Below, piece after piece: positions 16,395 to 20,873 of a DNA stretch of 64,000 nucleotides. A program made the translations under genes and the position numbers. This stretch comes from Candidatus Nitronereus thalassa (GTDB lineage: Bacteria > Nitrospirota > Nitrospiria > Nitrospirales > UBA8639), in contig NZ_JAQOUE010000001.1 of assembly GCF_032191465.1 (NCBI RefSeq), positions 2,759,501 to 2,823,500 of the forward strand. The letters run 5' to 3'. Numbering within the stretch: position 1 is the first letter of the stretch; every line of letters starts with the position of its first letter. The notes under the pieces were generated by a model that saw nothing but the letters and a program-made list of their open reading frames with translations, made no database searches and was not told the origin of the DNA.

Positions 16395-16423
16395 TTGACA
16401 GAAAGCGGGGGGTCTGTTACCTA
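16395..16423 (+). promoter_or_regulatory. Sigma-70-type promoter candidate
   Basis: TTGACA at 16395-16400 and TACCTA at 16418-16423 are separated by 17 bases. The -35 is a perfect consensus, the -10 weak. Transcription would start about 16430, directly before the hairpin at 16434, and would give a leader of about 275 bases for the regulator gene at 16707. Confidence 0.5.
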
Positions 16424-16433
16424 TTAAGTTAAG

Positions 16434-16455
16434 TAGGTGACGGAGCGGTCACCTA
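16434..16455 (+). other. Leader hairpin with 6-base loop
   Basis: TAGGTGAC (16434-16441) and GTCACCTA (16448-16455) are exact complements around the loop GGAGCG. ACCTA just upstream (16419-16423) can compete for the TAGGT arm, giving two alternative folds. The loop has G at position 4 but G rather than A at position 1, so it matches the ANTAR hexaloop rule only in part. Confidence 0.6.
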
Positions 16456-16487
16456 GTGTTTTACAATAGGGTATTCAGGACAACGAA

Positions 16488-16526
16488 CGTCCTTCCCCAA
16501 GTAAGTTTGGGAAAGGGCGTTTTTTT
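16488..16526 (+). terminator. Rho-independent terminator in the regulator leader
   Basis: CGTCCTTCCCCAA (16488-16500) pairs with TTGGGAAAGGGCG (16507-16519) over a 6-base loop with one mismatch, followed by seven T. It lies about 60 bases after the proposed start site and 180 bases before the regulator gene, so it is either an attenuator or the end of a small RNA of roughly 95 bases. Confidence 0.7.
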
Positions 16527-16617
16527 ATGACTTTTTGTGGTGGGTTTTGAATACTGGGAAAACTTGATACCAGAAAATTCTCAAGATTTTGTATATCATT
16601 TGACGATAAGACAGATA

Positions 16618-16690
16618 GGCAAAGGCGCCGGGTCAACCATGGGAGGAGTTTCCTTTTCCCTTGGTCAGCTTCGGCGCCTTTTGTATTTTG
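16618..16690 (+). promoter_or_regulatory. Leader element A: hexaloop motif overlapping a second terminator-like hairpin
   Basis: GGC-AAAGGC-GCC at 16618-16629 could form a short hairpin with a six-base loop having A at position 1 and G at position 4. The same bases AAAGGCGCCG (16621-16630) also pair with CGGCGCCTTT (16672-16681), giving a long stem ending in TTTTGTATTTT. The two folds exclude each other. The layout matches the element before the transporter at 18349, including the shared GGCAAAG word, but the short stem is only three pairs and no good first hairpin is seen. Confidence 0.5.
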
Positions 16691-16706: not shown

Positions 16707-17852
16707 ATGATTTCTCATTCTGAAATGGCTCAACTCGATCTGCTGGAAGAGGTCGTAAAGATCTTGACTAGCCTTGATTCGCCGGAGCGGCGAATAGAAC
16801 GGGCATTGGCATTATTAGGGCATGAGCCCAAGAAATCCATGACTTCGTTGAAAGGATCAAAAGGAAACAAAGCCATGCCTGTACTGATTGGCACGAGTCC
16901 TATCATGGAGACTCTGCAAGCAGCGATCCAACGGATAGCGAGTACCCCAGCCACGGTATTGATTCGTGGAGAGAGTGGAACCGGCAAGGAACTGGTCGCG
17001 CGAAGTATTCATGTTTCTAGTCGAAGAGCAGGCTATCCATTTGTGGCCGTGCATTGTGCAGCTGTTCCGGAGTCATTGATTGAATCAGCTTTATTCGGTC
17101 ATGAACGTGGTGCGTTCACTGGCGCGCATCAACGAAAAAAAGGGCGGTTGGAGCAAGCGTCTGGGGGAACCTTGTTTCTTGATGAAATTGGCGATATTCC
17201 AATGGCCACGCAGGTGAAGCTTCTGCGTGTACTCCAGGAAAAAGAATATGAACGGGTTGGGGGCAGTGAGACTCTTCCAGCGGATGTCCGGGTGATTGCT
17301 GCAACGCACCGAAACCTAGAAGCCATGATCCAAACCGGTGAGTTTCGGGAGGATCTGTACTATCGGTTAAATGTCATTCCGCTCGTATTACCACCACTGC
17401 GTGATCGAAGAGAAGATGTGCCAGCACTCATAAACCACTTCTTGGATAAATTCAATCAAGAGAACCGTCGTATGCTTCAACTGGCGCCTTCCTTTGTGGA
17501 TTTGTTAAGTGCTTATCATTGGCCTGGCAATATTCGGGAGTTGCAAAATTGCATTGAACGTTTAGTCGCGTTGTCAGATTCAAAGACAATTGATATCGAT
17601 TCTATTCCAGAATCGTTGGCTTCTTATTTTGAACACATGCGGGCGACACGCATGACTGCAAGCGCGGCACCTCAAACTTCTTCGGTTCAACAAACACTTC
17701 CTGACCGGTTAGATGCCATTGAGCGGGATCGCCTTCGTGAAGCCCTTACCAAAGCCGGATGGGTGAAGGCCAAAGCCGCGAGGTTGTTGGGCATGACCAC
17801 TCGTCAGATTTCGTACAGGATGCAGAAATATCAGCTTGTTGAAGAAGCTTAA
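16707..17852 (+). CDS. Sigma-54-dependent transcriptional activator without a classical sensor domain
   Basis: A 381-residue enhancer-binding protein. Residues 1 to about 57 are a short N-terminal region with no receiver or GAF domain. The AAA+ domain has Walker A GESGTGKE (88-95), the sigma-54 contact loop GAFTGA (135-140), Walker B LFLDE (156-160), and the arginine-finger region ending in HWPGNIRELQN. The C-terminus is a Fis-type helix-turn-helix (KAAARLLGMTTRQISYRMQ). It lies directly upstream of a transporter-nirA unit that has a sigma-54 promoter, so it is the natural candidate activator. Without a sensory domain it may be controlled by its amount, fitting the structured leader in front of it, or by a partner protein. 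Confidence 0.92.
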   Translation: MISHSEMAQLDLLEEVVKILTSLDSPERRIERALALLGHEPKKSMTSLKGSKGNKAMPVLIGTSPIMETLQAAIQRIASTPATVLIRGESGTGKELVARSIHVSSRRAGYPFVAVHCAAVPESLIESALFGHERGAFTGAHQRKKGRLEQASGGTLFLDEIGDIPMATQVKLLRVLQEKEYERVGGSETLPADVRVIAATHRNLEAMIQTGEFREDLYYRLNVIPLVLPPLRDRREDVPALINHFLDKFNQENRRMLQLAPSFVDLLSAYHWPGNIRELQNCIERLVALSDSKTIDIDSIPESLASYFEHMRATRMTASAAPQTSSVQQTLPDRLDAIERDRLREALTKAGWVKAKAARLLGMTTRQISYRMQKYQLVEEA

Positions 17853-17950: not shown

Positions 17951-18046
17951 AATGACCCTCCAAAACCTCCTTGCGAACCAAACAATTTTGTCGGGTTATG
18001 AACATTTTGGTGTGCACTGAACAGGATTGTCAGCATTTGGAAATGA

Positions 18047-18096: not shown

Positions 18097-18112
18097 TGGC
18101 AGGTTCCTTGCA
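18097..18112 (+). promoter_or_regulatory. Sigma-54 promoter of the nitrite transporter-nirA operon
   Basis: TGGCAGGTTCCTTGCA matches the -24/-12 consensus TGGCAC-N5-TTGCW with one change and exact GG-to-GC spacing. Transcription would start near 18123, giving a leader of about 225 bases that contains the attenuator at 18228-18318. Confidence 0.8.
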
Positions 18113-18227
18113 AGGAAATAAAGTAAAGGTGATTAACCTACGACATAGAGTTAGGTTCAGACGGTCGAGTCTCACAAGGGAGTGGTCTTGATCACGGTTT
18201 TATCCTGACAACGGCACAGTAAATTTT

Positions 18228-18318
18228 ACCTCTTTGAGAAAAGAGGTCATTGGCAAAGACGCCATCGTTTTAAAGGCGGACTACGAATAGTCCCCGGAAA
18301 ATGATGGCGTCTTTTTTT
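18228..18318 (+). promoter_or_regulatory. Leader element B: two hairpins and an overlapping terminator, ANTAR-type attenuator candidate
   Basis: Three elements occur in order. Hairpin one is ACCTCTT/AAGAGGT (228-234 and 241-247 of the 18 kb block) with loop TGAGAA. Hairpin two is TGGC/GCCA (18251-18264) with loop AAAGAC, which has the A1 and G4 that ANTAR proteins recognise. The terminator pairs AAAGACGCCATC (18255-18266) with GATGGCGTCTTT (18303-18314) and ends in seven T; it shares bases with hairpin two, so only one can form. The GGCAAAGACGCC word is the one I associate with nitrate/nitrite assimilation leaders controlled by NasT/NasR. No ANTAR gene is in the window. Confidence 0.72.
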
Positions 18319-18348: not shown

Positions 18349-19278
18349 ATGTATATGGAAGATCTCAAGCGAATGGCAGAGGTTTCACGGAAGAAGGTTG
18401 AATATTGCCTGAATGCTCCTGGAGGGTATTTTCTGTTATCCGCCCTGGCAGGTATCTATTTAGGATTGGGTATTTGTTTGATTTTCAGTGTGGGCGCGCC
18501 TTTTGCCGCGGAAGGTTCGGTAGCGCTTAAATTGGTCATGGGGACCTCGTTTGGCGTGGCCTTGACCTTGGTGATCTTTGCGGGATCGGAGCTTTTTACC
18601 GGCAACAATATGGTATGCACCATTGGGGCGCTGGCTCGGACTATTACCTGGAAGCATGTGGGCTGGATCTTTGTGTGGTCCTTTGTCGGGAACCTTATAG
18701 GCTCATTATTTGTGGCATGGATGATCGTACAATCTGGAGTCATGGCCAAGGCTCCTCAAATGGATCTGTTGATGAAGGTGGCCGCCATGAAAATGTCGGC
18801 GTCAGCCTGGGAGCTGTTCATTCGAGGCATCCTCTGTAATGTACTGGTGTGTCTTGCCGTGTGGATGGCGGCAAAAACCAAGAATGAAGCCGCGAAAATT
18901 ATGTTGATCTTCTGGTGTTTGTTCGCATTTATCGGCAGCGGGTTTGAGCATAGCATTGCCAACCAATCGCTGCTGGGCATGGCGTTGTTTCTGCCACATG
19001 GCGAGGCCATTTCCTGGAGTGGTTTTGCATGGAATCAAGTCTTTGTCGGATTGGGTAACATTGTTGGGGGTGCCGTATTGGTTGGCAGTGCGTATTGGTT
19101 GAGCAGCCCCTATCGCATGACGGATTCCGTAGTGACTCAATCTGAACAAACGATCCTGGGGCGCGAGGCCCAAGAATCGTTTGACCATTCTACACCGGCC
19201 TTAACCGCCACAAATTCAGTGGTACCGATGAAGGCCGGGTTTGTGGCCGTACTCAAACATGAGCGAGGAATGCGATGA
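18349..19278 (+). CDS. Formate/nitrite transporter family channel (nitrite uptake)
   Basis: A 309-residue FNT protein with six hydrophobic segments. It has the N-terminal APGGYFLLSALAGIYLGLGI segment, the FAGSELFTGNNM selectivity loop and the family signature GSGFEHSIAN. FNT pentamers pass small monovalent anions such as nitrite and formate across the inner membrane. The four-base overlap with nirA makes nitrite the likely substrate, supplying the cytoplasmic reductase. The start at 18349 follows AGGGGAGA at proper spacing; an earlier in-frame ATG at 18301 lies inside the terminator stem and is rejected. The C-terminal 60 residues after the last membrane segment form an extended cytoplasmic tail. 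Confidence 0.92.
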   Translation: MYMEDLKRMAEVSRKKVEYCLNAPGGYFLLSALAGIYLGLGICLIFSVGAPFAAEGSVALKLVMGTSFGVALTLVIFAGSELFTGNNMVCTIGALARTITWKHVGWIFVWSFVGNLIGSLFVAWMIVQSGVMAKAPQMDLLMKVAAMKMSASAWELFIRGILCNVLVCLAVWMAAKTKNEAAKIMLIFWCLFAFIGSGFEHSIANQSLLGMALFLPHGEAISWSGFAWNQVFVGLGNIVGGAVLVGSAYWLSSPYRMTDSVVTQSEQTILGREAQESFDHSTPALTATNSVVPMKAGFVAVLKHERGMR

Positions 19279-20873
19279 ATAAATTTGAAGTCTTAAAACA
19301 CGAGCGAGATGGGTTGGACATTATGGAGGATCTCCCGATGTTGGCGAAAACCGGATGGGAATCCATATCTGACGATGATATCCAGCGACTCAAATGGTAT
19401 GGCCTGTTTTTGAGAAACCCCACCCCAGGGTATTTCATGATTCGGGTGCGTATCCCCGGAGGCCGGGCAACGTCGGCTCAATTACGCACCTTGGCGGAAA
19501 TCGCTTTGACGTTTGGTAACGGGCAATTGGATTTTACCACGAGGCAACAGATTCAGCTTCGGCATCTGCGAATTGAACACGTGCCTGAAGCATTTGCAAG
19601 AATGGACGAAGTAGGCCTGACGTCGCTGCAAACCGGTTTGGACAATGTGCGCAATATTATGACCTGTCCGGTGGCAGGACTATCGCCAACCGAATGCCTT
19701 GATGCTACGTCGGTGGTGCATGCCTTAAACGAAGAAATCGTGGGCAATCGGGAATATACGAATCTTCCTCGGAAATTCAATGTGGTGATTACAGGTTGTC
19801 CTGATAATTGCCTCCATGCCGAGACGCAAGATTTAGCCCTTGTGCCGGCAACCAAAGATATCGATGGTGAAACGAAGGTCGGATTTAATGTGTTAGTAGG
19901 TGGGAAACTGGGATCTGGAGGATTCCGGATCGCCACGCCATTGGATGTGTTTGTTCTCCCGGAAGATGCGGTACAGGTTTCTTGCGCGGTGATTAAAGCG
20001 TTTCGGGATTACGGATTCCGGGATTCACGAACGACCGCCCGGCTCGCATTTTTATTGGAAGAGTGGGGTGAAGTCCGGTTTCGAGTGGAAGTCGAGCGAC
20101 AACTTGGTCATCATTTACTTACTGCTGGAAAAGACGCCAGGAAAAATTCAGAAAATCTTCATGGTGGAGTATTCCGGCAACCACAAATGGGATTGAACTA
20201 TGCGGGCCTCCATATTCCAGTCGGGAGAATCGAAGGCAAAGGTCTGTTGAAACTTTGTGAATTGGCCGAGCGTTTTGGGACGAGTGCCCTGCGTCTTGGG
20301 GCCAATCAGACATTGGTTATTCCCAATATTCACGACAAAGCTCTTGGTGAATTTCTGGAAGAGCCAGTGCTGCAAAAATTTGGTTACAATCCATCGCCCA
20401 TCAGAAAAGGCTTGGTGAGTTGTGTAGGAAGTGATTATTGTAACCTTGCGGTCATCGAAACCAAAAGCCAAGCGATGAAAACGGCTGCGGCCTTAGAAGC
20501 CAAAGTGGTCTCAGAGATTAAACCGATCACCATGCACTGGTCAGGCTGCCCTGCAGGATGTGGGAATCATCTCGTAGCGGACATTGGATTATTAGGGAAA
20601 AAGATCAAGCGTCGCGGTCAAATCGTGGAGGCGGTTGATGTCTATGTGGGCGGGCGATCGGGCCCAGATGCCAAGCTGGCGACGAAATTGTTGGAAGACG
20701 TCCCGTGCGAGGAGTTGGCCGAGGTGTTAGCTGGAGTGGTGCCGTATCATGCTCGGGAAAAGATGCATCGAGAAAAGAAGCGCATGCGACCAAAATCAGC
20801 TAGCGTAAGAACGAGTACTGCTGTGGTGAGTCCCTCCTCGCTGGTGAAGGAATCTGTCGCTGGTCGCTTGTGA
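19275..20873 (+). CDS. nirA: Assimilatory ferredoxin-nitrite reductase (siroheme, 4Fe-4S)
   Basis: A 532-residue nitrite/sulfite reductase family protein that reduces nitrite to ammonium with six electrons from ferredoxin. It has the two ferredoxin-like half domains and the four cluster/siroheme cysteines Cys383, Cys389, Cys425 and Cys429, spaced C-x5-C-x35-C-x3-C. Sulfite reductase is the main alternative; the adjacent nitrite-type channel and the nitrogen-style leader favour nitrite. The ATG overlaps the transporter stop as ATGA. The last dozen codons run into the family B repeat, so the C-terminus (VAGRL) is repeat-derived. Confidence 0.92.
   Translation: MNKFEVLKHERDGLDIMEDLPMLAKTGWESISDDDIQRLKWYGLFLRNPTPGYFMIRVRIPGGRATSAQLRTLAEIALTFGNGQLDFTTRQQIQLRHLRIEHVPEAFARMDEVGLTSLQTGLDNVRNIMTCPVAGLSPTECLDATSVVHALNEEIVGNREYTNLPRKFNVVITGCPDNCLHAETQDLALVPATKDIDGETKVGFNVLVGGKLGSGGFRIATPLDVFVLPEDAVQVSCAVIKAFRDYGFRDSRTTARLAFLLEEWGEVRFRVEVERQLGHHLLTAGKDARKNSENLHGGVFRQPQMGLNYAGLHIPVGRIEGKGLLKLCELAERFGTSALRLGANQTLVIPNIHDKALGEFLEEPVLQKFGYNPSPIRKGLVSCVGSDYCNLAVIETKSQAMKTAAALEAKVVSEIKPITMHWSGCPAGCGNHLVADIGLLGKKIKRRGQIVEAVDVYVGGRSGPDAKLATKLLEDVPCEELAEVLAGVVPYHAREKMHREKKRMRPKSASVRTSTAVVSPSSLVKESVAGRL

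Follow-up and report, generated by a model that had tools for sequence, protein, structure and literature searches.

The nirC leader of this genome is, with high probability, a transcription attenuator controlled by an ANTAR protein and placed downstream of a sigma-54 promoter, although no binding or expression data are available. At the level of sequence, the analysis establishes the elements themselves, the overlap of the two alternative hairpins, their covariation, the genomic uniqueness, the co-occurrence with an ANTAR gene and the triad of promoter box, activator gene and palindromes. The genes for nitrite uptake and assimilation appear to be held by two locks, a sigma-54 promoter and an RNA hairpin for which the ANTAR protein is the expected opener. 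The same RNA lock is found ahead of most genes for nitrogen acquisition in the order, and is absent along with the ANTAR protein. The promoter layer and the genes of the locus are as follows.

16707-17852, plus strand: sigma-54 activator (bEBP) with AAA+ and Fis-type HTH domains (Pfam, NCBIfam).
17982-17992, no strand assigned: putative upstream activator site 1, palindrome ACAATTTTGTC (from sequence; binding inferred).
18021-18031, no strand assigned: putative upstream activator site 2, palindrome ACAGGATTGTC (from sequence; binding inferred).
18097-18112, plus strand: sigma-54 -24/-12 box TGGCAGGTTCCTTGCA, exact GG-N10-GC, with +1 inferred at about 18123.
18349-19278, plus strand: nirC-type formate/nitrite transporter (Pfam PF01226).
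19275-20873, plus strand: nirA-like ferredoxin nitrite reductase (Pfam; best NCBIfam match PRK09566, 544 bits, below the 594 cut-off).

The -24/-12 element, described as near-consensus in the initial annotation, is an exact box and meets the membership criterion (TGGCAC-N5-TTGC type, GG-N10-GC). The TGGCANGNNNNTTGCA pattern has a single match in the window (the whole 64-kb stretch of DNA analysed) even if one mismatch is allowed, a looser stringency at which 1.2 matches are expected. Two ACAN5TGTC palindromes, spaced by 39 bp in this genome, lie between the activator gene and the box. Pfam recognised no sensory domain in the activator. The proposed sigma-54 control is supported by the adjoining activator gene, the paired palindromes and the presence of rpoN in the genome, so that the criterion of a bEBP with upstream sites plus RpoN is met, binding itself being inferred. 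The box, the palindrome pair and an upstream activator gene (intact or as a remnant) coincided in 9/9 leaders, which represent four genera; two other leaders that have an activator without a strong box lacked the palindromes too, and palindromes occurred in 0/20 leaders without an activator. Potentially, the box could be incidental and nirC transcribed by read-through from the activator gene, and attenuated nirC leaders indeed persist in relatives that have neither activator nor box. However, activator gene, palindrome pair and box are gained and lost as one, and we consider an incidental box highly improbable. The nirC start was placed at 18349, after AGAGAAGGGGAG, where homologues align from residue 1. 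An upstream in-frame ATG at 18301 was rejected as the start, as homologues and the Shine-Dalgarno sequence favour 18349. This ATG lies inside the terminator, and ORF callers may begin nirC there.

Downstream of the sigma-54 box, the leader contains the following RNA elements.

18163-18193, plus strand: extended hairpin tipped by the A1/G4 hexaloop CAC-AAGGGA-GTG, candidate remote P1 (-10.6 kcal/mol).
18228-18247, plus strand: hairpin adjoining P2, with a GAGA tetraloop or UGAGAA hexaloop, no canonical ANTAR P1 (folding, congeners).
18251-18264, plus strand: P2 antiterminator hairpin TGGC-AAAGAC-GCCA, loop with A1 and G4 (-4.4 kcal/mol; conserved, covarying).
18255-18318, plus strand: intrinsic terminator, mutually exclusive with P2 (-35.7 kcal/mol; covariance model E=7e-7).

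The second hairpin with loop AAAGAC (A1, G4) and the terminator using its bases had both been noticed before and were confirmed here. The loop and 3' arm of P2 constitute the 5' arm of the terminator, with AAAGACGCCA as the common sequence. Two criteria of an ANTAR target RNA are met, namely a P2 with a 6-nt A1/G4 loop on a stem of at least 3 bp, and the overlap of P2 with an intrinsic terminator. The entire leader folds 5.3 sd better than shuffles. A loose definition (an A1/G4 hairpin overlapping a terminator) is fulfilled by 2.7% of first-order Markov versions of the leader and at nine places in the window, and the generic structural scan was dropped as evidence because it is too loose. The attenuator shape by itself is weak evidence; the case is carried by its conservation, by covariation and by the shared occurrence of element and ANTAR gene. 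Searches of Rfam returned nothing useful at either gathering or permissive thresholds, and no family matching the element.

The 'hairpin with 6-base loop' of the initial annotation is ambiguous. The hairpin adjoining P2 folds with a GAGA tetraloop, its congener counterparts have 5-nt loops, and it was rejected as P1 because congeners carry loops of the GAGA, GCGAA and GGUGA type. An A1/G4 hexaloop does exist farther upstream (18163-18193), 79 nt loop-to-loop from P2, and is kept and predicted in three congeners. A canonical P1 (A1/G4 hexaloop) within 70 nt of P2 was not found in the nirC leader, leaving this criterion unmet, and is likewise absent from the other nirC-proximal attenuators of the family. 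Over all elements, a P1 with an A1/G4 hexaloop is present in 61/136, mostly at 38-46 nt (shuffled sequence, 5.5%). Antitermination by EutV requires close hairpins (PMC3369931, PMC8934654), and was abolished by a 20-nt longer linker (PMC8934654), while Walshe et al. argued for a single hexaloop as the minimal site (PMC8934654). Either P2 alone suffices in the nirC leader, or recruitment of the protein relies on a first hairpin that is remote or non-canonical.

The upstream regions of nirC used for comparison were collected via protein homology and not via the motif. Within the family (ten genera, 49 genomes), all readable nirC leaders outside genus g2 carry GGC-AARGRC-GCC, an overlapping terminator and a T run; in g2, the attenuator is missing from eight nirC leaders in six genomes. 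P2 is conserved in 19/19 aligned family elements, which are mostly nirC-proximal. GGAC-AANGGC-GTCC types prevail among the nirC leaders of Nitrospira proper, often together with a classic first hairpin. Among 45 diverse elements, the P2 pairs are intact in 97.8% of cells and those of the terminator in 91.5%. Compensatory changes at non-selected positions were observed for P2 pair 3-16 (GC/UA) and for terminator pairs 16-62, 17-61 and 18-60, and the signal was destroyed when the partner was slid. P2 pair 5-14 had served as a selection rule and was therefore left out of the independent covariation. Column 16 is part of both structures and covaries with its partner in each, which is what a switch would be expected to show. 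A lack of conservation of the hexaloop/terminator overlap in related genomes had been named as one of two findings that would refute the attenuator; the overlap is conserved in all family genera examined but one, and both alternative structures covary. It might still be argued that these are plain intrinsic terminators of conserved sequence (insulators or repeat-like) without antitermination, since P2 is much less stable than the terminator and chance overlaps of hexaloop and terminator occur at a few per cent. However, the 5' arm of P2, which is outside the terminator stem, is conserved and covaries with its partner, and the elements, which lie in nitrogen-gene leaders between the promoter and the start codon, are lost along with the ANTAR gene. 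We give this possibility little weight.

The other finding that would have refuted the attenuator, the absence of an encoded ANTAR protein, can be dismissed as well. A single ANTAR protein, of 421 aa and with GAF-GAF-ANTAR architecture, is encoded in the 4.0-Mb two-contig genome, in the order aroB - ANTAR - nadE - glnD and on a contig other than that of nirC and the activator, so that the ANTAR target RNA criterion of an encoded cognate protein is met. Exactly one ANTAR protein was present in 49/49 family genomes, and none was detected in 14 control genomes at the same threshold. The ANTAR domain (PF03861) scores 68.7 bits against a curated cut-off of 27.3, and the RNA-contacting residues required for membership are present. 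In the alignment of RKLVERAK to NasR, R340, K341 and K347 are kept, position 345 is R and the aromatic position W362 is F; the K345R change left NasR like wild type (PMC7496416). The RNA-contacting positions are invariant across 19 orthologues. The predicted structure consists of a tandem GAF and a helical ANTAR domain (mean pLDDT 80, pTM 0.50). By structure comparison the GAF tandem resembles PDE-type GAF pairs; GAF1 resembles the GAF of PtsP, a nitrogen-PTS enzyme (TM ~0.85-0.88 normalised to target, ~30% identity). In NCBIfam, GAF2 scores with NifA-type GAF domains, below the cut-offs of those families. The NasT-like gene suggested in the initial annotation was not recovered, as the sole ANTAR protein lacks a REC domain (NasT criterion not met); it lacks a NIT domain too (NasR criterion not met). 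In a genome-wide search for NIT domains even the controls gave no match, and the search adds nothing to the case. In three nadE leaders a TATAAT box stands just before the first hairpin, which suggests a separate promoter between the ANTAR gene and nadE.

A protein-independent element pattern was scanned over 236 genomes of the order, the same set in which the ANTAR gene was scored. Both were present in 133 genomes, only ANTAR in 28, only the element in 6 and neither in 69 (Fisher 2.5e-29), and all six element-only exceptions are drafts below 90% completeness. In genus g29, the element is found in 14/14 genomes with ANTAR and in 1/65 without (p 1.2e-14). These p-values overstate independence because the genomes are related, and the loss in g29 may represent few events; the direction of the association is clear. 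The disappearance of the regulator together with its RNA elements from a single genus provides a natural control. ANTAR is missing in 48/49 AMO-positive against 17/30 AMO-negative genomes of g29, and the pattern fits the statement that comammox Nitrospira are without the nitrogen-anabolism cluster (PMC12342949). Comammox as the sole cause of ANTAR loss was rejected in view of these 17 AMO-negative genomes and of the ammonia-oxidising (AMO-positive) g31 genomes, which retain ANTAR. The attenuator could also be real and operated by another switch, such as a small-molecule riboswitch or an RNA-binding protein, with an indirect link to ANTAR through a shared nitrogen cluster. The degenerate P1 in the nirC leader is compatible with this, and so is the fact that in one family ANTAR lies near several targets, which makes joint loss possible. 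Against it, the nirC and activator targets of this genome are on a different contig from the ANTAR gene, the loops fit the ANTAR consensus and no Rfam family matches; a different switch is, in our view, very improbable.

The covariance search proposed in the initial annotation was carried out with a model of P2 plus terminator, and recovered the element in its own genome and in relatives. Over the 4.0 Mb, four credible sites were obtained, one at nadE-glnD (E=3e-10), one in the nirC leader (7e-7) and two at the activator gene (6e-4 and 1.4e-3), followed by a reverse complement (E=0.13) and a match at E=5.8. Three of the four sites were training sequences; the site at 1.4e-3 (7-nt loop) was not. 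The nadE-glnD element is directly downstream of the only ANTAR gene of the genome. Among 25 well-assembled relatives, some of which also supplied training sequences, the model matched in 22/22 ANTAR-positive and 0/3 ANTAR-negative genomes. Across the order, elements stand before nirC, nrtA/cynA, nadE, urea-porin, amt, cynS and activator genes, and 80 of the 93 found by pattern or model precede nirC, nrtA/cynA, nadE, the urea-cluster porin, the activator or cynS. In one Nitrospira cluster, elements precede the urt genes as well as nadE-amt-glnD-glnA, nrtABC-cynS and amt (gene names read from sequences, with partial Pfam checks). Two loci of other Nitrospirales carry elements before a NirB-like flavoprotein and a response-regulator gene.

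Two tandem attenuators of the activator gene (16433-16682) were overlooked in the initial annotation. The leader of this gene contains the following elements.

16395-16428, plus strand: sigma-70-like promoter candidate TTGACA ... TACCTA/TATTAA (sequence only).
16433-16455, plus strand: P1 of the distal attenuator, 6-nt loop GGAGCG (folding, congeners).
16478-16492, plus strand: P2 of the distal attenuator with a 7-nt loop, GGAC-AACGAAC-GTCC (recurs elsewhere).
16483-16526, plus strand: terminator overlapping the 7-nt-loop P2 (covariance match 16476-16525, E=1.4e-3).
16617-16630, plus strand: P2 hexaloop GGC-AAAGGC-GCC of the proximal attenuator (covariance match E=5.8e-4).
16621-16682, plus strand: terminator overlapping the proximal hexaloop P2 (-37.4 kcal/mol).

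At the distal P1, congener loops read AGAGCG or AGAGTG. The 7-nt-loop form of P2 occurs in 16 elements and is conserved across genera (AACGAAC, AATGGGC, AATTGGC and similar); perhaps it is a hexaloop plus one extruded base. Genera g5, g7 and g10 have no activator and carry two tandem attenuators directly before nirC (eight loci), while g1, g4 and g9 possess the activator/sigma-54 block, the order in g9 being 7-nt-loop element, activator, sigma-54 box, hexaloop element and nirC. The arrangement looks as though a cassette of activator and sigma-54 box had entered or left the space between the two tandem elements. Two nirC copies separated by activator fragments (residues 265-295 and 322-380), seen among four of the loci, suggest a duplication of the activator-end/nirC segment.

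That the ANTAR protein binds the RNA, that it antiterminates, which way the control runs and that nitrogen status rather than nitrite is the signal are all inferred. In the proposed mechanism, the adjoining activator would bind the paired palindromes (17982-18031) and open the -24/-12 promoter, and RNA polymerase would stop at the terminator (18255-18318) unless the ANTAR protein holds the P2 hexaloop hairpin. With two tandem attenuators on the activator gene and one on nadE-glnD, control by the ANTAR protein would extend at once to the activator, to the target of the activator and to PII signalling, in a coherent feed-forward loop. The antitermination logic of NasR and NasT assumed at the outset is supported by the survival of both potential refutations, but the regulator itself is neither NasR nor NasT. 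The assumed response to nitrate or nitrite found no support. A NasR/NasT-like system induced by these ions shares its output domain and the kind of target operon with Klebsiella nasF (PMC3369931); nevertheless, it remains unlikely, since the sole ANTAR protein has two GAF domains and no NIT or REC, and since nadE, glnD and the transport of urea, cyanate and ammonium are among the targets. A nitrite oxidiser is never without nitrite, so induction by nitrite would carry little information. Expression of onr or nirA in the absence of ammonium, and shutdown of onr upon ammonia addition, were reported (cited in PMC6606698 and PMC12342949). Together with the tandem GAF and the target set just named, this points to nitrogen status (of the glutamine or 2-oxoglutarate type) as the most likely input, by inference. 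It is tempting to speculate that a single ANTAR protein with tandem GAF domains is the master regulator for nitrogen status in Nitrospirales, reading glutamine/2-oxoglutarate and opening attenuators before most nitrogen-acquisition operons; that some genera also gate a sensor-less sigma-54 activator, so that nitrite is assimilated only in nitrogen shortage; and that ammonia-living comammox lineages of one genus lost the whole circuit. We regard this wider proposal as evenly poised between right and wrong.

Nitrite oxidisers are bathed in nitrite and must keep burning and assimilating it apart. No mechanism for the expression of assimilatory nitrite reductases without ammonium was found in the literature searched, and the circuit offers a concrete and testable one, built on one regulator and a defined set of RNA targets in a globally important order. 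It would exemplify layered promoter and RNA control within a feed-forward loop, and its regulator would be a characterisable case of the GAF-ANTAR class, which was called uncharacterised in 2012. No characterised GAF-ANTAR protein was found in the open-access literature searched, nor a paper linking ANTAR with Nitrospira regulation, although a Nitrospira entry in the supplementary tables of Ramesh 2012 is not excluded. Such elements had already been shown to stand in front of nitrogen genes in a wide range of bacteria (Ramesh 2012, PMC3369931).

The elements share with the EutV-eut attenuators a hexaloop P2 with A1/G4 whose loop and 3' arm lie within an intrinsic terminator, an upstream hairpin in many elements and a multi-operon nitrogen-gene regulon (PMC3369931, PMC8934654). 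In contrast to EutV-eut, the P1-P2 loop spacing is typically 38-46 nt, against 24 nt in eutP (A29 to A53, PMC3369931), many elements are tandem, a 7-nt-loop P2 variant exists and the nirC-proximal elements of the family have no canonical P1. The ANTAR regulons of Desulfotomaculum and Pelobacter likewise repeat a single kind of RNA element ahead of many nitrogen operons, but belong to a different phylum, and sigma-54 layering is not reported for them in the accessible part of Ramesh 2012. NasR-nasF of Klebsiella and NasS-NasT of Azotobacter, Paracoccus and Bradyrhizobium also use ANTAR antitermination in nitrite/nitrate assimilation, with the same RNA-contacting residues as here. Unlike NasR (NIT-ANTAR) and NasT (REC-ANTAR), the regulator described here is GAF-GAF-ANTAR and its signal is probably nitrogen status; moreover, the target promoter is of the sigma-54 type and the activator gene has attenuators of its own. 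In PspF-type bEBP/sigma-54 circuits, the activator has AAA+ and HTH domains, no sensory domain and paired upstream sites. The Nitrospirales activator is similarly sensor-less with paired upstream sites, but its supply is, by inference, apparently set by RNA attenuators and not by a binding partner. What appears to be new is a regulator of GAF-GAF type, a Nitrospirales regulon that includes attenuators in tandem, and a feed-forward layer provided by sigma-54.
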